Assembly (NCBI GenBank): GCA_947455515.1
Contig: CANGOF010000002.1
Span: forward strand, 1 to 61,831
Length of the DNA stretch: 61,831 bases
Source: Flavobacteriia bacterium
Lineage (GTDB): Bacteria; Bacteroidota; Bacteroidia; Flavobacteriales_D; Crocinitomicaceae
Direction of reading: 5' to 3'
Positions 2,924 to 34,933 of the stretch are shown here, piece after piece; position 1 is the first letter of the stretch, and every line of letters begins with the position of its first letter. Under the pieces are notes generated by a model that saw only the letters and a program-made list of their open reading frames with translations, was not told where the DNA came from and made no database searches. The position numbers were made by a program, and so were the translations under genes.

Positions 2924-5295
2924 GGTTGTCCTGTTATTGATTTATTTGCTTTGTATTTATCAAAATCAAATTTGAATTTCCAGCTAACAGATGGAATAAT
3001 TGGAAACAAACTTACTTGCATTAACACTGTTTTTCCTTGTTGATTATCGGTATATAGGAAGTATGGATTTTTGCGGTTGTATAAATTATACACTGAAAAG
3101 GATAATACCGTTTGACCCCATTTTTTCTCTCGTGTGCGATTTGCACTTACATCCAAACGATGATATGCTGGCATCCGATAGTTATTTATGGAGTTAAAAT
3201 AACTCACTTGAGAGTTTTTGATTCCATTGGTGATTTCATTATAAGCTAGGTTGTAGTTTTGTGTACCTAAGGTTACTGCATTTCCGGTTCCATAAACAAA
3301 CACTGCCCCAAAGTCCCATGTGTCATTTAATTTATAGGTCATTACAACCGATAGGTCATGCCTTCTATCGTAGCGATAAGGGAAAATTTTACCAAAGTTT
3401 ATATTGTCGAATTGTCTGTTGGTCCAACTCAAGGTATAACCAATCCATCCTGTCAATTTACCTCTCTTCTTTTCTAAGAAAAATTCAGCTCCATACGCCC
3501 AACCGCGACCAATTTCAATTTTAGATTGCCAATTCGTATTCGCATCAAAAAAGCTGGAACCTTCTTTATATTGAATTAAGTTGGTCATTTTTTTATAATA
3601 TCCTTCTACTGAAAAACTATATCCTTTTTGGAAATCTTTCACATAACCTCCACTAATCTGATCTGAAATTACGGGAGGAACAGAGTCAGTTGTTGGAACC
3701 CATAAGTCAGTTGGTAAACCAATTCCTGTATTGGATAATAAGTGAAGGAATTGTGCTGTTCTTGCATAACCAAGTTTTATACTAGAAGATTCAGTTAACA
3801 TATAATTTAAAGCAAATCGAGGCTGTGGTTTACTGTATGAAATTTTATCTACGAGGAATCCACAGTAACTAATTCCGATATTCACTTTTAATTTCTCATT
3901 GATTTTAATATCATCTTCAACATAACTCGAAATTTCATGGGTGTATTTGAAATCGGCACTTCGTGTTCCACTTGTTGTTTGGGTACTATAGGTATTTACA
4001 CCTGGTTTAAATGTGTGGTAAATATCTCCAAAACCAAAACGAATAGTATGATTTGGGTTAGGAATGTAAGTGAAATCCGATTTTCCTGACCAATCATTTA
4101 TTCCAGAAAAATAATTAAATGAGAAACTTTTGTCTGTAGTTACATTATTAAATGTACTTGAATTGTTACTACTCGTTCCTAGGTTAAAAAGATATTTAGA
4201 ATACGTAAATGTTGTATTTACAAATAGTTTGCTATTTATTCGATAATTCCATCGTAATGCAGCAATTGCATTTCCCCAATTTAGACCACTTGTATTTTGA
4301 TTTTTAAAGGAAGAGTAAGTGGTATTTCCTGAACTAGTGGATGTAATGTTTGCTACATCTTTTCCAAAATAGGTAGAGAAATAAAGGTGATGATTGTCAT
4401 TAATTTTGTGATTGATTTTTGCATTTACATCATAAAAATAATATCCTCCAGTATTATCTGCTGGTAAAAATGGTTTAGCTAAAAAATCTAAATAGGTTCT
4501 TCGAGCACTAATCACAAATGCAGTTTTATCTTTTTTGATTGGACCTTCTATTAATATTCTACTTGCAATGATTCCAATAGAACCTTCAATATTCATTTTT
4601 TGATTGTTCCCTTCTTTCATTTTCATATCAAGTACAGAAGAAACTCTTCCATTATAACGTGCAGGAAATCCACCTTTTGTTAAGGTAACTTGAGAAATTG
4701 CATCAGAATTGAAAACAGAGAAAAATCCAAATAAATGTGAAGCATTATAGACAGGTACTCCATCTAATAAAATTAAGTTTTGATCAGGACTACCCCCACG
4801 AACATAAATTCCACTCGATCCTTCACCTCCTGATTTTACTCCCGGCATTAATTGTAATATTTTAAGAACATCTTTTTCACCAAGGAGTACAGGTAATTTA
4901 TCCACTTTATCCATCGATAATTCAATTGTTCCAATGTTAGTGGTGTTAACCTGACTTTTATTTTGTTTAATTTTCACTATGGCAACATCCAAACTTTTAA
5001 CTTTTTCAAGATAAATTGTTAAATTGTTTTTTGATATTGGAAGATTTATAAATTGTGTTTCAAATCCAGATCCAGAAACTCTAATCACAACTGTATCGTT
5101 CAGGGTTTTTAAACTAAAGAAACCGTAATCACTAGAAATTACCCCAATTTTATGAATTGTGTCGTAAATACTTATTGATGTTAATTTTTCTCCATTTGAT
5201 TTTTGAATTATGTATCCATTTATAACTCTATTTTCTTGAGTAAAACTAAAGAATACGACAAAGAAAATAAAAATGGAAAGGATGATTTTCCGCAT
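2920..5295 (-). CDS. TonB-dependent outer-membrane receptor with carboxypeptidase-like N-terminal domain
   Basis: This is a 791-residue outer-membrane receptor. A signal peptide (about residues 1-20, ending SFTQE) is followed by a carboxypeptidase-regulatory-like beta domain (about 22-95), a plug domain (about 115-235, with 'GGSPDQNLILLDGVPVYN') and a long beta-barrel rich in aromatic strands ending in a phenylalanine-rich stretch. It should import a ligand with energy from TonB/ExbBD. The partner DUF4249 gene overlaps its 3' end. TAAAGATA at 5363-5370 (TATCTTTA on this strand) is a possible -7 box. No SusD gene is adjacent, so this is not a SusCD pair. The ligand cannot be told from sequence. 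Confidence 0.9.
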   Translation of the reverse strand: MRKIILSIFIFFVVFFSFTQENRVINGYIIQKSNGEKLTSISIYDTIHKIGVISSDYGFFSLKTLNDTVVIRVSGSGFETQFINLPISKNNLTIYLEKVKSLDVAIVKIKQNKSQVNTTNIGTIELSMDKVDKLPVLLGEKDVLKILQLMPGVKSGGEGSSGIYVRGGSPDQNLILLDGVPVYNASHLFGFFSVFNSDAISQVTLTKGGFPARYNGRVSSVLDMKMKEGNNQKMNIEGSIGIIASRILIEGPIKKDKTAFVISARRTYLDFLAKPFLPADNTGGYYFYDVNAKINHKINDNHHLYFSTYFGKDVANITSTSSGNTTYSSFKNQNTSGLNWGNAIAALRWNYRINSKLFVNTTFTYSKYLFNLGTSSNNSSTFNNVTTDKSFSFNYFSGINDWSGKSDFTYIPNPNHTIRFGFGDIYHTFKPGVNTYSTQTTSGTRSADFKYTHEISSYVEDDIKINEKLKVNIGISYCGFLVDKISYSKPQPRFALNYMLTESSSIKLGYARTAQFLHLLSNTGIGLPTDLWVPTTDSVPPVISDQISGGYVKDFQKGYSFSVEGYYKKMTNLIQYKEGSSFFDANTNWQSKIEIGRGWAYGAEFFLEKKRGKLTGWIGYTLSWTNRQFDNINFGKIFPYRYDRRHDLSVVMTYKLNDTWDFGAVFVYGTGNAVTLGTQNYNLAYNEITNGIKNSQVSYFNSINNYRMPAYHRLDVSANRTREKKWGQTVLSFSVYNLYNRKNPYFLYTDNQQGKTVLMQVSLFPIIPSVSWKFKFDFDKYKANKSITGQP

Positions 5296-5388
5296 GATTT
5301 TTTTTAGTAAATGTAAACCAAAAAATTAATTATAAATGTTAATATTTAAATATGTGATTATATAAAGATAATGTCCAATTAATTTGCA

Positions 5389-5420
5389 GTTGAATTGCTC
5401 TAAAATTCTTACTATATTCG
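5389..5420 (+). promoter_or_regulatory. Putative promoter of the thiolase gene
   Basis: GTTG at 5389-5392 (a -33-like box) is followed after 20 bases by TATATTCG at 5413-5420, one base off the Bacteroidota -7 consensus TAnnTTTG. The ATG lies 21 bases downstream of the -7 box. The same TATATTCG box occurs on the minus strand upstream of rpsA. Confidence 0.45.
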
Positions 5421-5441
5421 TGGTGTCAAAAAAATGAAATT

Positions 5442-6623
5442 ATGAGCAAAAAAGAAGTATATATCGTTTCTGCAGCGAGAACTCCAATCGGAAGTTTCTT
5501 GGGTGCATTGTCTAGCGTTTCAGCTACTGATTTAGGTGCAACTGCAATTAAAGGTGCTGTTGAAAAAGCAGGTGTTAGTCCTGAAGCAATTCAAGAAGTA
5601 TTTATGGGTAACGTATTGCAAGCGGGTGTTGGTCAAGCTCCCGCACGTCAAGCTGCATTAAAAGCTGGTTTGTCTAATACGGTTCCTAGTACGACAATCA
5701 ACAAAGTATGTGCTTCTGGTATGAAATCGGTGATGTTAGGAGCACAATCGATCATTGCTGGTGATAACGATCTAGTTGTTGCTGGTGGGATGGAGAGTAT
5801 GTCTCAAACTCCTCATTACATCGACGGAAGAAATGGTACGAAATTCGGTAACATTTTGATGTTGGATGGTATTACAAAAGATGGATTATTAGACGTTTAC
5901 AGCAGAGTTCCTATGGGAAATTGTGCTGAATTATGTGCAAAAGAATATAACCTAACTCGTGAAGATCAAGATAACTTTGCGGTTGACTCCTATAAAAAAT
6001 CAGCGGAAGCATGGAAAAATGGGCACTTCGCAAACGAAGTTGTTCCAGTATCTGTTCCACAACGTAAAGGAGATGCTATTTTAGTTGGTGAAGACGAAGA
6101 ATACAAAAATGTTTTCTTAGACAAAATCCCAACCTTACGTCCTGCATTTGATAAAGAAGGTACAATTACTGCGGCTAATGCATCTAAATTAAATGATGGT
6201 GCTTCTGCATTAATTTTAGCTTCTGCGGAAGCTATTGCTAAATACAACTTGAAACCAATTGCTAAAATTGTTTCGTATGCGGATGCTGCACACGCTCCTG
6301 AATGGTTTACAACTGCTCCTGCAAAAGCGGTGGATAAAGCATTAGAAAAAGCAAACCTTAAAAAAGAAGATATCAATTTCTGGGAATTCAACGAAGCATT
6401 TGCAGTTGTTGGATTAGCAAACGTGAAAATCTTAGGGTTAGATCCTGAAAAAGTAAATATTTACGGTGGTGCAGTTGCCTTAGGTCACCCACTAGGAAAC
6501 TCTGGATCTCGTATCTTAGTTACGTTGGTAAATGTATTGAAACAAAATAACGCGAAATACGGTGGTGCTGCTATCTGTAATGGTGGTGGAGGTGCTTCTG
6601 CAGTTATCATTGAAAATATCTAA
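5442..6623 (+). CDS. Acetyl-CoA C-acetyltransferase (thiolase)
   Basis: A biosynthetic/degradative type II thiolase (393 residues) that condenses or cleaves acetyl-CoA/acetoacetyl-CoA. The nucleophile Cys90 lies in 'INKVCASGMKSV', His349 in 'GGAVALGHPLGNSGSR' and the second catalytic cysteine, Cys379, in 'CNGGGGASA', all in the standard order and spacing. Length matches the AtoB/PhaA/ThlA family. The gene has its own promoter and a strong terminator, so it is transcribed alone. Without neighbouring beta-oxidation or mevalonate genes, its role (ketone or fatty-acid breakdown versus isoprenoid supply) cannot be chosen here. Confidence 0.94.
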   Translation: MSKKEVYIVSAARTPIGSFLGALSSVSATDLGATAIKGAVEKAGVSPEAIQEVFMGNVLQAGVGQAPARQAALKAGLSNTVPSTTINKVCASGMKSVMLGAQSIIAGDNDLVVAGGMESMSQTPHYIDGRNGTKFGNILMLDGITKDGLLDVYSRVPMGNCAELCAKEYNLTREDQDNFAVDSYKKSAEAWKNGHFANEVVPVSVPQRKGDAILVGEDEEYKNVFLDKIPTLRPAFDKEGTITAANASKLNDGASALILASAEAIAKYNLKPIAKIVSYADAAHAPEWFTTAPAKAVDKALEKANLKKEDINFWEFNEAFAVVGLANVKILGLDPEKVNIYGGAVALGHPLGNSGSRILVTLVNVLKQNNAKYGGAAICNGGGGASAVIIENI

Positions 6624-21976: not shown

Positions 21977-24346
21977 TTATTTGGTAAATATTTTTTTATA
22001 CCAAGGCGTTATTTTATTATGTAAACTATCGTTTATACCACTACCATAACCGTAGCCATATCCATATCCATAATTTTTTGTATGATCTGAACAATTCAAT
22101 AAAATTGCCATGTTTTTTAATTTACCTTCATTGTAAAGTGATGTAGGAATATTTAATAAACGTTTATCCAAATAATCTGCTCTTGAAACATAAATAAAAA
22201 TATCTGCATAATCATTTAATAATAAGGTATCCGCAACCATTCCAACAGGAGCAGTATCTACTACTATATAATCAAACTTTTCTTTTACTATTTCAAACAA
22301 AGTATTTAATCTATCGGTCATTAATAATTCTGCCGGATTTGGAGGTATAGGACCTGAAGGAATAATAGTCACATTTTCAATTTCCTTCAAATTAATACTG
22401 ATATCATCTAACGTAATATTTTCATCAATTATAAAACTTGTAACACCTTTTGTTGCATTAATATCCAAATACTGCATAATTTTAGGCGCTCTTAAATCCA
22501 TTCCGATTAGGGCTACTTTTTTACCCGATAATCCTAAGGTACTTGCTAAGTTCAAAGCAATAAATGATTTACCTTCATGACTAATCGTAGAAGTTATAAA
22601 GATAGATTTACATGTATCTTTCTTGCTAGGGATTAAGAAATTTATGTTTGTACGAAGTAGTCTAAATGCTTCAGCAACACTAGATCTTTCCGTTTTTCCA
22701 ACTACTAATTTATTTTCTACATCAGAAATTGGAATATCCCCGATATAAGGTATTCCGAGATCAGAAACATCAAATTTATTATGAATTTTAGTGTCTAAGG
22801 TGTTTCTGATATATATAATTAACGTTGTTATTGCTAATGTTAACAAAAGAACAATAGTAAAAACCATTTTCTTTTTTGGCTTAATTATACTCCCGTTACT
22901 ATACGCATCATCAATAGTTTTGGAATTGGATACAGTAACCGCTAATGCCATAGAAGTTTCTTCTCTTTTTTGAAGTAAGAACAAATAAAGATTTTCTTTA
23001 ATTTGTTGTTGTCTCATTATTTCTTTAAAATTCTTCTCTTGAACTGGCGCAGAAACTAATTTATTTTTTAAGTTTATGTCTTGATTCTCTAAAGATTTAT
23101 TCCTAATCTTTAACGAGTTACGCTGATTAGATAAACTTTCCTTTAAGTTTCTTTTAAGTGATTCTAATTGAGCGTCTAAATTTACAATTACAGGATTTTT
23201 ATCGCTAGATCCTATAATTAATTTATTTCTTTCTAATTGAAGCGTATTTACAGTTTCAATCATTTTCTCAATCGATGGATTATTAATACCAATATTAGAA
23301 GGTATCAATTCACCATTTTTCTTTTTACTTATATAATCAAAAATGTATTCAGCCATTTTAAGCTGTGTACTATTTTCAATTATTAACTTTTCATTTTCTG
23401 ATTCATTTTCAAAAAACAGAGAAGCATTGGTTGTTAAATCGAAAATTTTATTATTTGATTTGAAATTCGATACATTTTGATCAACATTAGAAAGTTCATT
23501 CGTAATAAAATCAATACGTTCATTAATAAAATTTAATGTGTTTTTTGAAACTTCATTTTTATCTTGAATCGCATCTTTATTGTGTTGCTTTATTATATTG
23601 TTAATAATAGCTTCCCCTTTATCTATATTTTCTATATCCATAGATATCAACAAAACACTAGATTCTTTATTATTTTCTTCAACAACAACATTACTTTGTA
23701 AATAGTCAACTACTGCATCAAACTTTGAGATTTCCAATATCAGCTTTTTACCAATTGGAATTTGTTTACAATTCGGGGTAATAACTGCATCTCCTAATGG
23801 TAAATGAAATGATTTACCAAAATTGACTATCTTAGAATCTTCAGTTTCTAAATCATTTATTTCAAATGTTGAATTAGAAACAAAAGTGATTTCGTAGGAT
23901 CCATCCAATTTGTAAATAGAAGAGTCACCTTTTAAAAAATTAATTTTTATCCAAGGATTTTTAAATTGCTCCTTAGAAATTGGCCCATTATTGTCAATAT
24001 AACCGACATTTAATTTTAAATCTTTAACTACAAGTGACAATAATTTACGTGATTCTAAAATTTCAATTTCATTTTCAATTTTATTTTGCATAGATCCACC
24101 TCCACTTAATTCAGAGATAGCAGACATTTGTGAGACTAAATCATTTTTATCATCGTCTTTAATTAATATACTTGCACTTACATTATAGGTAGGTGTAGTA
24201 TATCTTAAATACAAGAGGCCAAAAATAATCCCGAAAAATAGCGTTACTAAATACCACTTCCATTTAAATAAATAGGGGTAAATTATTTCTTTAAAATTAA
24301 AATTTTCAGAAAAATCTTCTTTCGTTGTTTGATTTAGTTGATTCAT
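21977..24346 (-). CDS. Wzc-like polysaccharide co-polymerase and tyrosine autokinase
   Basis: A 789-residue inner-membrane protein that controls chain length and export of the polysaccharide. It has a Wzz domain with transmembrane segments at about 31-49 and 494-513, and a long periplasmic coiled-coil region between (about 255-460). A cytoplasmic BY-kinase domain follows, with Walker A 'TSTISHEGKS' (585-594), Walker A' 'VALIGMDLRAPK' (611-622) and Walker B 'DYIVVDTAP' (692-700). The tail has a Tyr-Gly repeat (759-768), the likely autophosphorylation cluster. The start overlaps the wza-like stop by 4 bases. It is the last gene of the cluster. Confidence 0.93.
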   Translation of the reverse strand: MNQLNQTTKEDFSENFNFKEIIYPYLFKWKWYLVTLFFGIIFGLLYLRYTTPTYNVSASILIKDDDKNDLVSQMSAISELSGGGSMQNKIENEIEILESRKLLSLVVKDLKLNVGYIDNNGPISKEQFKNPWIKINFLKGDSSIYKLDGSYEITFVSNSTFEINDLETEDSKIVNFGKSFHLPLGDAVITPNCKQIPIGKKLILEISKFDAVVDYLQSNVVVEENNKESSVLLISMDIENIDKGEAIINNIIKQHNKDAIQDKNEVSKNTLNFINERIDFITNELSNVDQNVSNFKSNNKIFDLTTNASLFFENESENEKLIIENSTQLKMAEYIFDYISKKKNGELIPSNIGINNPSIEKMIETVNTLQLERNKLIIGSSDKNPVIVNLDAQLESLKRNLKESLSNQRNSLKIRNKSLENQDINLKNKLVSAPVQEKNFKEIMRQQQIKENLYLFLLQKREETSMALAVTVSNSKTIDDAYSNGSIIKPKKKMVFTIVLLLTLAITTLIIYIRNTLDTKIHNKFDVSDLGIPYIGDIPISDVENKLVVGKTERSSVAEAFRLLRTNINFLIPSKKDTCKSIFITSTISHEGKSFIALNLASTLGLSGKKVALIGMDLRAPKIMQYLDINATKGVTSFIIDENITLDDISINLKEIENVTIIPSGPIPPNPAELLMTDRLNTLFEIVKEKFDYIVVDTAPVGMVADTLLLNDYADIFIYVSRADYLDKRLLNIPTSLYNEGKLKNMAILLNCSDHTKNYGYGYGYGYGSGINDSLHNKITPWYKKIFTK
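22038..22073 (-). repeat. In-frame hexamer repeat coding the Tyr-Gly tail of the kinase
   Basis: Six 6-bp units (plus strand CCACTA, CCATAA, CCGTAG, CCATAT, CCATAT, CCATAA) encode repeated Tyr-Gly. Gain or loss of a unit by slippage would add or remove one tyrosine without a frameshift. Confidence 0.6.
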
Positions 24347-25107
24347 TTTGTTAGGATATTAATCATCGTAATTAATAAGGATGCAGTTGAAATAAATACA
24401 CTTGAAGCAGCACTAATCAAGGAAGAATTTGCTCTTGCTTGATTAGGTTGAATATAAACTACATCATTTTGATTCAAATAATATACAGGAGAATTAAATA
24501 TTTCTTTCGTAGTTAAATCTATTTTATATTCCTTCTTTTGACCGTTTTCTTCTCGAATTACTAAAATGTTATTTCTAACTCCTGTGATGTTTAAGTCACC
24601 TGCTAAACCGATTGCTTCTAATAAAGTAATTCGTTCGTTAGGAATAGTAAAAGTTCCAGGATTTTTAACTTCACCTAATACGGTTACTTTAAAATTTTGA
24701 ATTTGAATATTAATGATAGGATTGTTAATGTAAGGTTTGATTTTTTCTTTTAACAATTCAATTACTTGACTTCTTTCTAAACCTCCAATTTTGATTGTAC
24801 CTAATATAGGGAAGTCGATTTCACCTTTCTCATTTATTAAAAAACCTTGATTAGCAGGAGCACCAATAGAATACCCACGATTTGTTGGGTTTATGGAAGG
24901 TGGAAGATTAAAAGGTTTTGTACTATTATCGTCCGCACCATAAACTACAATGTATAAAAAATCATCTGGTTTGAATTTAGGGGAATATGAATTAGTTGTT
25001 ACAGAACTTATTGGGTCAGTTGAATTTTGAAAATAAACTAATTTTTTTCGCGATGCACAGGAAAAAAATAAAATTGTCAAGAGGAGAAATGATATACTTT
25101 TTTTCAT
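24343..25107 (-). CDS. Wza-like outer-membrane polysaccharide export lipoprotein
   Basis: A 254-residue export protein forming the outer-membrane outlet. The N-terminus from the ATG is 'MKKSISFLLLTILFFSC', a lipoprotein signal with Cys17. A Poly_export domain (about 40-125) and an SLBB domain ('VTVLGEVKNPGTFTIPNERI' and onward, about 140-205) follow, and a hydrophobic C-terminal helix (about 226-252) may cross the outer membrane as in Wza. An in-frame TTG at 25134 would add nine residues. I chose the ATG at 25107 because it gives a standard signal peptide and because that TTG lies inside a promoter-like box. Its stop overlaps the kinase start. Confidence 0.9.
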   Translation of the reverse strand: MKKSISFLLLTILFFSCASRKKLVYFQNSTDPISSVTTNSYSPKFKPDDFLYIVVYGADDNSTKPFNLPPSINPTNRGYSIGAPANQGFLINEKGEIDFPILGTIKIGGLERSQVIELLKEKIKPYINNPIINIQIQNFKVTVLGEVKNPGTFTIPNERITLLEAIGLAGDLNITGVRNNILVIREENGQKKEYKIDLTTKEIFNSPVYYLNQNDVVYIQPNQARANSSLISAASSVFISTASLLITMINILTK

Positions 25108-25131
25108 TTTATTACGTGATGAATTAATGGA

Positions 25132-25139
25132 CAAAAATA
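25132..25139 (-). promoter_or_regulatory. Internal -7 promoter box upstream of the wza-like gene
   Basis: The minus strand reads TATTTTTG, an exact TAnnTTTG, 24 bases upstream of the ATG in the 60-base gap after the sugar transferase. It suggests that export genes can be transcribed apart from the sugar genes. Confidence 0.4.
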
Positions 25140-25167: not shown

Positions 25168-26202
25168 TTAAGCACTTCGCTTTTTCTTAATTAAAATATT
25201 CCAAATAGCTTTAAAAAAACAAATAGTATCGGTAAAATAAGGGTTTTTATTTTTTTTAATTAAGTATTCACGTTCTGCATCTAATACACTTGCTACCGTA
25301 CTACTCTTATTAAAAGCAACATATGGAGGGATACAGCCTGGTTTGTGTTTAGCTCTTAACTCCCTTAAATCTTCCGGAATATCTTGTAAATAACGAAGTC
25401 CAACAGGTCTTATACCTACCAATTTTAAATCACCTTTGATAACATTTAATAGTTGAGGAAGTTCATCTAACCAATATTTTCGCAAAAACTTCCCCCAAGG
25501 AGTTAATCTAAAATCATCCGCTGGCTTACCAGAAGCAGCATATCCATTTTTTTCCAGTATATACGAATGTAAAAACTCAGAATATGGGTGCATGGTTCTA
25601 AATTTATAAACTCCAATCATTTTTCCGTTCTTACCTACACGAGGCATTGTATATAATAAACCATAACTTGGCTTTTGATTCTCAATTGGAAGACCTGTTT
25701 TTTTAACAATAAAATAAAGTTTATTGTTAATCGTTTTAAACTCTACAATAGAGAAACCACAAGAAATTAACCTACCTAAGAGTTCTGCTTTAGAAATTAG
25801 TCTATTTCTTCCTCGAGTAACAAAAAAATAGATTTTTTTTAATCCAGACACTTTTGGAAAAACACGCAAAAAAATAAATTCAAAAATAAAAATGATTTTA
25901 GCAATGATTCTAGGATACTTCTTTCTTTTGCGTTGCTGTCTACCAGCAATAGTTTCAGCTAACCCAATATATAAACCATCAAATTCAAGTTTTGAATTAA
26001 CATCAATAAAAAAACGGTTTATATATCGTAGGTTATTTACTTTTGTAAAGTTGACTATAGTGTTAAATTTAGCTGTGGCATTAATAATATTAAATGAATT
26101 AGTTGTTGATATAACTAACGTTTCGCTATTATTTAAATCGGTAAAAGAAGATAAATATCTATAAGCATCTTCACCAATTTTATCTGATATCAAAGTTTTC
26201 AT
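25168..26202 (-). CDS. Initiating sugar-phosphate transferase with atypical N-terminal half
   Basis: The C-terminal half (about residues 180-340) is a bacterial sugar transferase (polyprenyl-phosphate glycosyl-1-phosphate transferase) domain: 'PRVGKNGKMIGVYKFRTMHP', 'LTPWGKFLRKYWLDELPQLL' and 'GDLKLVGIRPVGLRYLQDI'. It should put the first sugar phosphate on undecaprenyl phosphate. The usual membrane helix directly before the catalytic domain is missing. Instead residues 1-165 contain a soluble-looking region, one hydrophobic stretch (about 100-120) and 'AELLGRLISCGFSIVEFKTI', like the end of a degenerate methyltransferase fold. The ATG at 26202 has a TATCTTTG box just upstream. Confidence 0.85.
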   Translation of the reverse strand: MKTLISDKIGEDAYRYLSSFTDLNNSETLVISTTNSFNIINATAKFNTIVNFTKVNNLRYINRFFIDVNSKLEFDGLYIGLAETIAGRQQRKRKKYPRIIAKIIFIFEFIFLRVFPKVSGLKKIYFFVTRGRNRLISKAELLGRLISCGFSIVEFKTINNKLYFIVKKTGLPIENQKPSYGLLYTMPRVGKNGKMIGVYKFRTMHPYSEFLHSYILEKNGYAASGKPADDFRLTPWGKFLRKYWLDELPQLLNVIKGDLKLVGIRPVGLRYLQDIPEDLRELRAKHKPGCIPPYVAFNKSSTVASVLDAEREYLIKKNKNPYFTDTICFFKAIWNILIKKKRSA

Positions 26203-26227: not shown

Positions 26228-26962
26228 TCAATATTTTACTATATAATGTTCTTCAATATAGAAATCACAATAAATTTTTATAAGGTAGTATCCTGTATTT
26301 AATTCAGTTAGATCAATTTCACTTTTATTTTTTGAAATTAAAAGTATTTGACCTGTCAAATTTGAAATTGTAATTAATTCCGGAATATTATCTGTTAAGT
26401 AATCAATTTTTAAAATATTTTGTGTTGGATTTGGATATATTTTAAATTTATTATCATTAATGAATAAATGTTTTTTATCATCACTTTTAGATTGAAAAAA
26501 AAGTATATCAGATTTTTTAAAATTTGAATGTAAAAAACAAGAATTATTAAATCCATTAAATCCGTTATCATTTAATGGATTATTTCTATTAAACTGACAA
26601 ATATAAAATTGTTCAATTTCTAAATTGTTGATTGATATTATATCATTACTATACCAAGATTTGAATTCTCCTATAACTGTAGCTTTAGATATAACATTTA
26701 ATGAATATGTTAATGAAGAATCTAGATAATTAGTATTTTTTGTTGCTAAGTACATATTTGTCAAAGCATCAATAGAATAAGCTAATTCATAGTAATCATT
26801 AGAATATTTACTATTACTTCTGTTAAGTGCAGCATTATAAAAATTTTCAGCTTCAGATTTAGCTCTTATATCAAATTGATCCTGCCAATACTTAATTGAA
26901 TCACTATTAATTTGTGAAAAGATAGAATTTGAAATAAATATTAGAATAATTAATAGTTTCAT
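26228..26962 (-). CDS. T9SS-exported protein with type A sorting domain, unknown function
   Basis: A 244-residue protein with a signal peptide ('MKLLIILIFISNSIFSQ', 1-17) and a C-terminal type A sorting domain of about 72 residues starting 'FKIYPNPTQNILKIDY' and ending 'YIVKY'. Such domains direct proteins through the type IX secretion system to the cell surface. The middle (about 18-165) is helical-looking, with 'EAENFYNAALNRSNSKY' and repeated Asn/Tyr-rich stretches, and matches nothing I recognise. It lies inside the polysaccharide operon, 14 bases after the acetyltransferase and 25 bases before the sugar transferase, an unusual place for a T9SS cargo. A+T content is high, like its neighbours. 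Confidence 0.8.
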   Translation of the reverse strand: MKLLIILIFISNSIFSQINSDSIKYWQDQFDIRAKSEAENFYNAALNRSNSKYSNDYYELAYSIDALTNMYLATKNTNYLDSSLTYSLNVISKATVIGEFKSWYSNDIISINNLEIEQFYICQFNRNNPLNDNGFNGFNNSCFLHSNFKKSDILFFQSKSDDKKHLFINDNKFKIYPNPTQNILKIDYLTDNIPELITISNLTGQILLISKNKSEIDLTELNTGYYLIKIYCDFYIEEHYIVKY

Positions 26963-31252: not shown

Positions 31253-32494
31253 TTATTTGGTATTAGTTTTATTAGTAGCTATTTGAACCTTATATTCTTT
31301 TCCTATCCTTAAAATACTACCTATGAGTAGATAAGAAAAGGCATTATACCCCAAATAGGTTATACCTGAGCTAAAATCATTGAAAAATCGAAGTAAAATA
31401 AAAATACATCCAAAATAAAATAAGTTTAATAAATAAAAATTATTAAGTTTCTTGGCAGTGTAGAAATTTTTTAAAATTTCAGTAAATTGCTTATAATAAA
31501 AAGACAAAAATAATAATAGTCCAACAAACCCTCCATTCCAAAAAATTCGAATGTAGGAATTATGTGCCTCGCGATCTACGTCAAACGATTTACTCAAAAA
31601 CATTCTGTCATTGAAAACTTCTCCTGTTCCAAATAACAATTTAAGTGGGGAATCTTTCATTAAAGCATATACCTTAATATTTTCCACAAAACGTCCTTCG
31701 TTAGTAACATCGTATTCTTTGTCAAACCTTCCTTTTCGAGATGCAATACTATCTTCCAAGAGATAAGAGAAATTGGAAAAAACCACTAAAAATAAAATAG
31801 AAAATAATGTAATACGTAAAATTCGAATAAGACTGATTTTTTTAAAAAAATAAAAAATAAAGGATACAAAAATTAGTATAACAAGAGTTCTTTTAAGAAG
31901 AAGGATTAATATGATAATTGATGTGATAGAGAATAATATTGAAAAATAACGTTCAATTTTACTTTTTATCATTTTCAAATTATAAATTATAACTATAATA
32001 GAAAAAGTTGGAACATAAATACCGTTTAATGAATAATATCCCATTTTAATTCCTCCTTTATAAAAGGATTCACCTATCCCTAAAACATTTACTATAATGA
32101 TATAAATTGAAAAATAAGCCAAAAAAAACCACGATTTTCTTATAAAATAACCAATATAGTCTGGTTTATTTAATATACTATACCCGATTAAAAGATAAAA
32201 AAATGGGATTAAAAATTTAATTAAATAGTTAAAAGTCACTATCATATTCGAACTAAATAAAGATAGAACGATAAAATAAATTATTATGGTAAATGTTAAA
32301 ACTGAGAGTTTAGGTTTTTGAATATTTGTTCTCGATAAAATGAAAAAACGATAGAATAAAATACCATTTAACAGCAACTGAACAGATATAATTAGAGTTC
32401 TATCTTCTGTAAACAAAAGAAAGGATTCAATTACTGTATTTAAAAAAATTACAATAAATGTTAGCTTAATAATCGTAGGAATTTTAGTTTTCAA
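31253..32494 (-). CDS. O-antigen polymerase/ligase-like membrane protein (Wzy-type)
   Basis: A 413-residue protein with about ten to twelve transmembrane segments and a periplasmic loop ending 'SFDVDREAHNSYIRIFWNGG', the pattern of Wzy/O-antigen ligase proteins (H-N-x-Y followed by W/G). It should link undecaprenyl-bound repeat units in the periplasm. Because the cluster also has a flippase and Wza/Wzc-type exporters, a polymerase role is more likely than a lipid A ligase role. It overlaps the glycosyltransferase gene by 11 bases. Confidence 0.8.
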   Translation of the reverse strand: MKTKIPTIIKLTFIVIFLNTVIESFLLFTEDRTLIISVQLLLNGILFYRFFILSRTNIQKPKLSVLTFTIIIYFIVLSLFSSNMIVTFNYLIKFLIPFFYLLIGYSILNKPDYIGYFIRKSWFFLAYFSIYIIIVNVLGIGESFYKGGIKMGYYSLNGIYVPTFSIIVIIYNLKMIKSKIERYFSILFSITSIIILILLLKRTLVILIFVSFIFYFFKKISLIRILRITLFSILFLVVFSNFSYLLEDSIASRKGRFDKEYDVTNEGRFVENIKVYALMKDSPLKLLFGTGEVFNDRMFLSKSFDVDREAHNSYIRIFWNGGFVGLLLFLSFYYKQFTEILKNFYTAKKLNNFYLLNLFYFGCIFILLRFFNDFSSGITYLGYNAFSYLLIGSILRIGKEYKVQIATNKTNTK

Positions 32495-33644
32495 TGTTCA
32501 ATTTTTTGTAAAAATTTAACCAATCATTAATAACATTGTTATCGTACTTTTCAATTACTTTCATTCTATTTTGATTTAATGTAAGTAAATTGTCTTCTGT
32601 TTGTAAAGAGTTAGCGATTGTATTTATTGCACTCGAAAGTTCATCAATCGAATTAATTAATGTGGTCTTAACATCTGAAGTATAATCATTATATGGTAAC
32701 CATTTACCGGTAATAACATTTGCAAATCCTAAATTGCTTTCCATTAGAGATAGTGCAAGTTGGTCAATTTTTCGCATATTAACGAAAATATCCGTTGCAT
32801 GTCTTAGAAGTGCCATTTCTTCATAAGATAAGAATCTAATATTTATAGAATAGGAAATTGTCTTAAATTCTGTTTTTAACAATTCTTCGATTTTTCTTTC
32901 ACGATCTAAAACGGTATTTAGATGATTAGAAAGATTAATCACAAAATGAAACCTTGAAATATCAGGGATTTTTTTTACCTCTTCAAACATTTTTTCATGT
33001 TGTTCATTTTCAGTTGAATTTGTACCAAGGACAACAATAATTTTATCTAAAGGATAATTCAGCTTTTTTTTACTTTCTTTCTTATTTTCAAATGTAAAAT
33101 CGCGGTAAAATTTAAAATGATCCTGTGGAAGCAATAATACATGTAATTTATCTAAAATGACATCATTTTTTACATAACTATTTGCTGTTTTGGCAAAGTT
33201 CAATGAAGAAGCGATAATTGCATCCGCTTTATCGTAAATCTTAGTGAACTTATTTTTAATAAATGTTCTTTGATTGATATCTGAACCAAAAAGACAAATG
33301 ACTAATTTATCACTGAGGTTATTTATCAATTGTGGAATGACTAAATATTCTTCTCTTAAATAGTTGATTTGAACAACATTGTATTTCTTTTTGTTTTTAA
33401 TACAGAAATAGATTAAACTCAAAAAATTTAGAAAAATATTAATTTTAAGTTTATAAAAAAAAACTGGAAAGAGATTATATGAGTGAATTTTCTTAGCGTC
33501 AAGATCCATTAATATTCGTTGCTTTGGATCATATATATCAACAGAATAACCACTACTAATTAAATTAGAAATGATGTAATCATGATCTCTTCTAACTGTC
33601 TTAAAAGGACTGTTAGATCGCGCAAATATTAATACCTTCATCAT
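32484..33644 (-). CDS. Glycosyltransferase, GT-B type (family 4-like)
   Basis: A 386-residue cytoplasmic glycosyltransferase. The N-terminal half has 'MKVLIFARSNSPFKTVRRDH' and 'VVQINYLREEYLVIPQLIN'. The C-terminal half has the donor-binding pattern 'KIIVVLGTNSTENEQHEK' and a late 'LALSLMESNLGFANVITGKW' (equivalent to the E-x7-E region of GT4). It would add one sugar to the lipid-linked repeat unit. It shares one base with the flippase stop. It is the only clear classical glycosyltransferase in the cluster. Confidence 0.78.
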   Translation of the reverse strand: MMKVLIFARSNSPFKTVRRDHDYIISNLISSGYSVDIYDPKQRILMDLDAKKIHSYNLFPVFFYKLKINIFLNFLSLIYFCIKNKKKYNVVQINYLREEYLVIPQLINNLSDKLVICLFGSDINQRTFIKNKFTKIYDKADAIIASSLNFAKTANSYVKNDVILDKLHVLLLPQDHFKFYRDFTFENKKESKKKLNYPLDKIIVVLGTNSTENEQHEKMFEEVKKIPDISRFHFVINLSNHLNTVLDRERKIEELLKTEFKTISYSINIRFLSYEEMALLRHATDIFVNMRKIDQLALSLMESNLGFANVITGKWLPYNDYTSDVKTTLINSIDELSSAINTIANSLQTEDNLLTLNQNRMKVIEKYDNNVINDWLNFYKKLNIEN

Positions 33645-34933
33645 TAAACAATTTTTAAACCTACTAATCTTCGGACGAAAGAATTCATCATTATAAAACT
33701 TAAAAAAGAACTAATAGAAACAGCTAAAGTAGCACCTAAAAGTCCGTAAAAGTAAGAAAAAATAACTGTTAAGCTTAATGAAATTGCCATAATTGAAAAT
33801 GTACGAATCACATTTTCTTTCAATTTACCTATCATTACTAATATAGCACCACTCCAAGATATAAGTGCGGAAGGAAAAATTCCAATCATTGAAATAACCA
33901 AAAGATGTAAACTATTTTTGAAATCCGCTTTGAAATAATGTACTATAATTAAATACATAATAATCACAGCAATAGATTGTATTAAAAGAACTAATAGATT
34001 TACTTTACGTATCCTATTAAATTTATTTTGAAGTTCTATTAAGTTATTTTCACTATGATATTTGGAAATGATAGGGTTAATATTTTGTTGAAGTATTCCA
34101 GGAAAAATGTAAAGAGATTTTGCAAAGAATATATAGAAGCTATAAATCCCAACTTCTGAATTTGTTAAAAAATATCCAATTATTAGGATATCAAATTTAT
34201 CATTAAAAATCGCAAATAATTCTGCTGAAAAGCTTTTAAATCCAAAGCTGAAATTATCTTTAAGTATTTCTTTATTAAAATTTAAAGTGAATAATTTTCT
34301 AAGTTGTATAGAACTATAAACTACTAAAATAATCTCAGAGAATAGAAAAGAATATAGAATTGTTTTTTCATCAAGTTTAAGCGAAATACAAATACTAATA
34401 AAACCAATAATTAAAACCCACCTCAAACTACGAACAAAAGAAAATTGTTTCTGCATTCTTTTACCTGAATAATAAGCCATGAAATTTTTATTCAAATTAA
34501 AGAAGGGAAGAGATAATAAGGGGATTATTAATGCATTCGCTAATTCTTTTGAACTAATAATTTGAGGCCAATTATAGATAACCATTATTGTTAAACCAGT
34601 AAGTATTGTAGAAAAAAGGAATGTTAAAAAAAAGTTAGAACTAAGTAATTGCTTTTCTTTTTGAATCCTATATTGGTCTTGAGATAATGAAGAAATCTTT
34701 TTAATGATTGAATTATTTAGACCAAGTGAGAAGATCGTGGATAATATAGCATAATATCCTAATACTTGATTGAAAATTCCAAGTTCACTTGAACCAAGTT
34801 CTTTTCCAATAAGTAAATTAACTAATAATCCCGAGACTACTAATACGCCCTGTGAACCTATCAACCAAATAGTATCTTTAGAAAATTTACTTTCTGCTAT
34901 TTTTTTTAATAATATATTAGCTTTGTTTATCAA
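33644..34933 (-). CDS. Wzx-type oligosaccharide flippase
   Basis: A 429-residue polytopic membrane protein of the MATE/polysaccharide-transporter type: 'KDTIWLIGSQGVLVVSGLLV' as first segment, about twelve hydrophobic segments, and 'FGFKSFSAELFAIFNDKFDI' followed by 'IIGYFLTNSEVGIYSF' in the middle. It would flip lipid-linked repeat units to the periplasm. Eleven bases separate it from the nucleotidyltransferase gene. Confidence 0.88.
   Translation of the reverse strand: MINKANILLKKIAESKFSKDTIWLIGSQGVLVVSGLLVNLLIGKELGSSELGIFNQVLGYYAILSTIFSLGLNNSIIKKISSLSQDQYRIQKEKQLLSSNFFLTFLFSTILTGLTIMVIYNWPQIISSKELANALIIPLLSLPFFNLNKNFMAYYSGKRMQKQFSFVRSLRWVLIIGFISICISLKLDEKTILYSFLFSEIILVVYSSIQLRKLFTLNFNKEILKDNFSFGFKSFSAELFAIFNDKFDILIIGYFLTNSEVGIYSFYIFFAKSLYIFPGILQQNINPIISKYHSENNLIELQNKFNRIRKVNLLVLLIQSIAVIIMYLIIVHYFKADFKNSLHLLVISMIGIFPSALISWSGAILVMIGKLKENVIRTFSIMAISLSLTVIFSYFYGLLGATLAVSISSFLSFIMMNSFVRRLVGLKIV

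Follow-up and report, generated by a model that had tools for sequence, protein, structure and literature searches.

The stretch of DNA analysed here, 61,831 nucleotides from a Flavobacteriia bacterium and hereafter called the window, carries a gene whose product contains the catalytic domain of a sugar transferase, here a monotopic phosphoglycosyl transferase (PGT), without the re-entrant membrane helix (RMH) and preceded by a methyltransferase-like half. All members of the monotopic PGT superfamily, which has been split into small, large and bifunctional members in the portion of PMC10942596 available, are said to include both an RMH and an Asp-Glu dyad (PMC10519829, likewise in the portion available). 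In the family to which the window protein belongs, the dyad is present and the RMH is absent; because the first hallmark is kept and the second is lost, the family is a new variant of the monotopic PGTs. The layout, presented as unusual in a preliminary description of this DNA, belongs to no well-known family in Pfam and NCBIfam, which model only the catalytic half, and is not described in the literature searched, a prior mention in superfamily network surveys being possible. A conserved family in which the active site is intact and the RMH missing provides a direct way to ask what purpose the RMH serves, and it suggests that a dead enzyme has been recruited as a membrane anchor. It also supplies an annotation marker for Bacteroidota polysaccharide loci; one member (L103) is annotated merely as "sugar transferase". 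The gene and its parts are as follows:

25168..26202, (-) strand: pseudo-methyltransferase/PGT fusion gene (P0001, 344 aa), ATG start, reading frame open and complete
25690..26202, (-) strand: class I methyltransferase-like domain without SAM motif I, residues 1-171
25852..25911, (-) strand: aromatic/hydrophobic helix, residues 98-117, between strand 72-83 and helix 138-147, candidate membrane-docking helix
25816..25842, (-) strand: short second helix, residues 121-129, behind the P116-K117 break
25789..25869, (-) strand: residues 112-138, the most basic 27-column stretch
25657..25698, (-) strand: short linker at the expected RMH position, residues 169-182
25195..25665, (-) strand: monotopic PGT catalytic domain, residues 180-336, PF02397 positions 33-177
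25462..25467, (-) strand: codons of the catalytic dyad Asp246-Glu247

The fusion is a real conserved family and not a product of chance. A pattern-led scan of one genome per species, covering 84,980 species, gave 38 loci, 36 of which were aligned with the window protein (alignment A1, 37 sequences), most of them across both halves and a few in part only; a frameshifted locus (L019) and one with the catalytic half only (L038) were left out. According to record titles, the family occurs in several Bacteroidota groups, Chlorobiota, Ignavibacteria and Calditrichota, the last two represented by metagenome-assembled genomes. A profile of the N-terminal half finds it in 45 of the 295 genomes sampled from the window genome's class (E up to 1e-6) and in 22 of 296 of its phylum (E up to 0.001), the window's own genome being counted in both samples. 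In the loci searched the N-terminal half never stands alone, the two exceptions being a reading frame cut by the locus end (L044) and the frameshifted L019. A truncated or misassembled gene is rejected, as the layout is kept in the 36 aligned homologs, the closest of which is 89% identical, and a lost N-terminal part has no space, because the upstream gene ends 25 bases before the start codon.

PF02397 (Bac_transf) is the sole Pfam match of the window protein (E 7.3e-26, residues 180-336, profile positions 33-177 of 179), with a score of 91.2 bits that lies above the curated threshold of 27, and NCBIfam adds polyprenyl glycosylphosphotransferase models that match the catalytic half only, all under their cut-offs. 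Its sequence relatives in the PDB are WbaP and PglC, and the catalytic half of the AlphaFold2 model (mean pLDDT 89.5, pTM 0.82, with the 37-sequence alignment as input) resembles both structures. PglC of Campylobacter, a small monotopic PGT, thus shares with the window protein the catalytic fold (Z 12.5), a sequence match and the Asp-Glu dyad; unlike it, PglC has, as described in the text available, an N-terminal RMH with a Ser23-Pro24 kink in the place of the pseudo-methyltransferase. WbaP and WcaJ are large members consisting of four transmembrane spans, PF13727, an RMH and the PGT domain; the catalytic domain is alike (Z 14.5, 121 aligned residues and 2.3 Å for WbaP), as are the four N-terminal spans of some long relatives in the family, whereas the window protein has no PF13727, no RMH, no transmembrane span ahead of its methyltransferase-like domain and no four-helix transmembrane bundle.

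The active site is well conserved. The D246-E247 dyad is kept in 91/91 family proteins, and K200, R202, R241, D246, E247, R265 and P266 are each kept in 61/61; profile alignment places the dyad and the G-x-RP motif in register with WbaP. The set of 91 was obtained after removal of L040, L064 and L066, the L044 frame at 2844 falling out as N-terminal half only, and the 61-protein counts exclude L019, the cut L044 frame at 2844 and, as second copies, L040 and L064; partial frames at contig ends, such as L008 and L016, were retained. The stretch behind the RPG motif, canonically of the ITxWxQ type, reads xxPPY in the family. The family-specific features lie at window positions 25321-25473, where W244 stands directly ahead of the dyad (RKYWLDEL) and KPGxxPPY takes the place of the RPGITxWxQ found in L039, the genome's ordinary PGT. 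Covariation between the domains (91 sequences, Neff 75) supports no conclusion, because F105 dominates the top pairs and this Y/F column may just track subfamily.

The absence of the RMH is apparent from several lines of evidence. The first 32 or so positions of PF02397, which represent the RMH, are unmatched in the window protein, whereas the control, L039, matches positions 1-178 together with CoA_binding_3; when the two are aligned, the family is without the stretch that holds the RMH of L039 and begins at the segment that follows it. Since 13-17 residues separate residues 168 and 183 in 61/61 family proteins, the linker has no room for an RMH. The preliminary description had called the segment before the catalytic domain hydrophilic and devoid of the usual anchor, and had noted a single hydrophobic stretch far upstream. 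Both points are borne out: besides the profile start at position 33, the 40 residues ahead of residue 181 reach a Kyte-Doolittle peak of 0.98 (19-residue window), and the only stretch of the protein above 1.6 is 99-117, at 1.76. Among the 37 aligned sequences, the highest values in the same 40-residue region are 1.43 (L024) and 1.72 (L026), both in the beta-hairpin region. Nor does an RMH appear in the predicted structure, where helix 138-147 and a beta hairpin (strands 150-158 and 161-168) precede the first catalytic strand, 183-189. The same division is seen across genomes. Starting positions of PF02397 matches were counted by hand in 41 genomes drawn from the 64 family-bearing genomes besides the window's own (20 from the phylum sample and 21 from among the most complete in the class sample), the places of family genes being identified by matches to the N-terminal-half profile. 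Of 149 matches, 91 begin at profile position 1-7 and 42 at 30-39, with none between 8 and 29; the 42 are the family genes, of which each genome has one or more. The remainder comprises 13 partial matches from 93-119, a split pair in G331 and one fragment in G119.

The N-terminal half had been described beforehand as like a class I methyltransferase, and residues 3-171 of the predicted model do match that fold (Foldseek E down to 1.6e-4). In VIA-align comparisons the best structural match is 3cc8 (Z 12.7, 133 aligned residues, rmsd 4.4 Å), and UbiG (5dpm) gives Z 11.1 over 121 residues at 3.5 Å. A weak model of a relative with four transmembrane spans (L011, pLDDT 73.7) still retrieves methyltransferases (best Foldseek E 0.0024), with WbaP at rank 41 only and an rmsd of 24. 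Sequence comparison points in the same direction. Methyltransf_23 and CMAS each match 4 of 28 N-terminal halves weakly (best E 0.00043 and 0.0011); the window protein's own half has no Pfam match. An HMM of the N-terminal half, run over 1323 open reading frames, gave methyltransferases as its first 11 non-family matches (best E 0.0013), in a set rich in such enzymes through the inclusion of 30 loci fetched by a TIGR01983 search. With hhalign the profile scores 45.9 against 15 methyltransferases (shuffled maximum 18.5), a figure flattered by the choice of these 15 as matches of the same HMM (E up to about 9). Seven UbiG proteins not so chosen score 23.8 (shuffled maximum 19.9), and both scores exceed 60/60 shuffles. 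Less informative were the NCBIfam matches of the 28 halves, in which a phospholipid N-methyltransferase (1/28, E 0.0017) stands amid chance-looking ones, and the comparison of the profile with PDB sequences, which gave nothing convincing (best E 0.45). TIGR01983, the curated UbiG model, matches none of the 28 halves at E up to 10, and its search of 60 genomes gave many matches, none above the cut-off.

As to the SAM-binding residues, to which the preliminary description had drawn attention, the GxGxG of motif I is present in 0/61 family proteins, compared with 13/15 true methyltransferases and 7/7 UbiG proteins; a bare GxG occurs in 16/61, mostly in the EGLGR of helix 138-147. By its predicted fold and motif content, the N-terminal half has the fold of a class I methyltransferase, lacks motif I and is a putative decayed methyltransferase. 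An active methyltransferase is rejected on the absence of the motif.

Between strand 72-83 and helix 138-147, the predicted model has a helical insertion made of helices 85-95, 98-117 and 121-129. Helix 98-117 is rich in aromatic residues and ends in a conserved pattern, with R113 in 90/91, P116 in 81/91 and K/R117 in 91/91 family proteins; columns 112-138 form the most basic part of the protein (charge +7.27, against a median of +1.35 for all 27-column stretches). Kyte-Doolittle values exceed 1.6 at this helix in the window protein and in 3 of the 36 others (L001, L002 and L004, the last from Taibaiella lutea). Because so few members look transmembrane by this scale, an in-plane or shallow re-entrant dock fits the sequences better than a membrane span. 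By the Wimley-White interface scale, 27 of 37 proteins have their most membrane-favouring stretch in the helix region; in the window protein this region reaches -3.82, compared with -4.26 elsewhere, and so is not its most interfacial stretch. A precedent is offered by E. coli UbiG, in which, according to the text available, an insertion (165-187) between beta4 and alpha10 binds membrane lipid (PMC4796655). By hhalign, this insertion is in register with helix 98-117, the UbiG stretch reading ...AEYILRMVPKG... and that of the window protein ...FEFIFLRVFPKV..., so that both carry a hydrophobic helix with R-x-x-P-K at a matching place, which is suggestive. UbiG resembles the N-terminal half in its methyltransferase fold as well and is unlike it in keeping motif I and in not being fused to a PGT; in sequence the two are weakly similar overall (hhalign P 0.008, probability 5%, above 60/60 shuffles), and the HMM of the N-terminal half matched only one of six UbiG loci in the 1323-frame set (L101, E 2.9).

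The fusion gene lies in a polysaccharide locus, the main genes of which are:

24343..25134, (-) strand: wza-like polysaccharide export gene, next downstream
21977..24346, (-) strand: wzc-like chain-length/kinase gene
31253..32494, (-) strand: Wzy/O-antigen-ligase-like gene, same locus
33644..34933, (-) strand: Wzx-like flippase gene, same locus

Further content includes a hexapeptide acyltransferase, a polysaccharide deacetylase and a DUF354 protein. Since the locus has Wza-, Wzc-, Wzx- and Wzy-like genes and the fusion gene is directly upstream of wza-wzc, the protein is taken, from gene content and order, as the PGT of a wzx/wzy-type locus. A separate observation is a 244-aa protein with a Por_Secre_tail, a type IX secretion sorting domain, encoded at window positions 26228-26962 between the hexapeptide acyltransferase gene and the fusion gene. 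A scan for viral sequence gave one weak locus.

It is reasonable to infer that the window protein is probably on the membrane in a different way from other PGTs. The explanation that we favour, and hold to be somewhat probable, is that the PGT is active and that the pseudo-methyltransferase keeps it at the membrane by means of the aromatic, very basic helical insertion 98-138. Some 14 linker residues would join the catalytic domain, devoid of the RMH, to a class I methyltransferase that has decayed and is no longer able to bind SAM in the usual way; the retained insertion would dock onto the inner membrane by its aromatic/hydrophobic helix and conserved basic cluster, and docking would keep the PGT active site at the bilayer surface. 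Catalysis, undecaprenyl phosphate as the acceptor and docking through 98-138 are thus what we infer. Against this, the loss of the RMH could mean that the reaction itself has been lost, because in PglC changing Pro24 of the RMH inactivates the enzyme and this residue is proposed to bind the polyprenol, the RMH being important for topology, fold and activity (PMC6133551, in the text available). An ordinary PGT and four PF00953 matches elsewhere in the genome, together with the replacement of the ITxWxQ-type stretch, also count against it.

Alternatively, the protein may be a peripheral PGT recruited by a membrane partner such as Wzc/Wza, the flippase or another glycosyltransferase, with helix 98-129 being a structural or protein-protein element of the decayed fold, a possibility that we rate clearly below docking yet take seriously. 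The adjoining wza-wzc genes would fit such recruitment, and in 7/37 loci (L001, L002, L003, L005, L006, L017 and L027) wza-wzc follow immediately downstream of the family gene, on the same strand; however, a wza or wzc homolog is present in 13/37 family loci and absent from the other 24 within the DNA covered, several of these being short contigs. Polar positions within helix 98-117 (D/E at 108 in 25/37 aligned proteins and R113 in 37/37) would also suit a protein contact, as would the additional transmembrane spans of some relatives, four in L010, L011 and L028, for example, and about eight in L012 and L051, as if the domain alone may be insufficient. Transmembrane-like spans before the domain number none in 44 of 64 rows, one of which (L014) reflects a mis-set domain start, the counts being too low for the first copy of L014 and for L055 for that reason. 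What speaks for docking rather than recruitment is that the aromatic and basic make-up of 98-138 is kept in long and short forms alike.

An elaboration of the docking proposal, which we consider rather unlikely and put forward tentatively, derives the pseudo-methyltransferase from a UbiG-like enzyme acting on membrane substrates with polyprenyl tails, the insertion now offering the undecaprenyl chain to the active site of the PGT and replacing the RMH and its proline. If true, a monotopic PGT would here have evolved its module for membrane and lipid recognition independently, and the RMH would not be essential to the chemistry.

It is more doubtful still that the protein is a non-initiating enzyme, whose catalytic domain uses another acceptor or is regulatory beside the ordinary PGT. 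Such an ordinary PGT with an RMH, L039, is the genome's one other PF02397 gene, and its equivalent is found in 40 of the 41 family-bearing genomes examined; the family-specific W244 and xxPPY would mark an altered pocket. Nevertheless, an invariant dyad is unlike a decaying enzyme, the window contains no PF02397 gene besides the fusion gene, inspection by eye of the 12 kb around L039 showed nothing that obviously serves polysaccharide export or polymerisation, and one family-bearing genome (G119) shows no ordinary PGT. Finally, an ordinary large PGT, with a divergent CoA_binding_3 (PF13727) Rossmann domain and a poorly recognised RMH, is very improbable and was rejected on the missing domain match and the methyltransferase-fold N-terminal half: although the order of 0/4/8 transmembrane spans, Rossmann-like domain and PGT mimics WbaP, the latter matches the model over 178-338 only, no more than 17 residues occupy the place of the RMH, and PF13727, present in the control L039, is matched neither by the 37 A1 members (trimmed to the shared region) and 14 A2 members at E up to 1 nor by nine full-length family proteins at E up to 0.1.

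Bifunctional PGTs (PMC10942596) offer another comparison, in that a further domain is fused to the PGT catalytic domain; the fused domains are described there, in the text available, as functional, whereas the partner in the present family has lost its SAM motif and replaces the RMH. Possible fusions of a different kind occur in family-bearing genomes. In G124 (L138 2024-4012), with 13 similar places, the match of frames of 652-719 aa to PF02397 is confined to the end of the profile (from 93-119); the L138 frame lies beside an ordinary PGT gene, its start looks by eye like a family-2 glycosyltransferase and its degenerate PGT end has no Asp-Glu dyad, so that such frames are possibly glycosyltransferases fused to a dead PGT. 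Within the family itself, the pseudo-methyltransferase of L012 (3316-5319), L046 and L051 is preceded by 7-8 hydrophobic spans, as if a four-span module had been doubled, and L009 (Lutimonas halocynthiae, 4509-6026) and L053 (964-2385, (-) strand) begin with an extra segment that weakly resembles HTH_Tnp_1 (E 2e-4 and 3e-4, both short of the Pfam cut-off). Tandem family genes are found in two genomes, at L014 (4437-6035 and 6079-7641) and at L044 (1420-2499 and 2845-3465, the second cut by the locus end).
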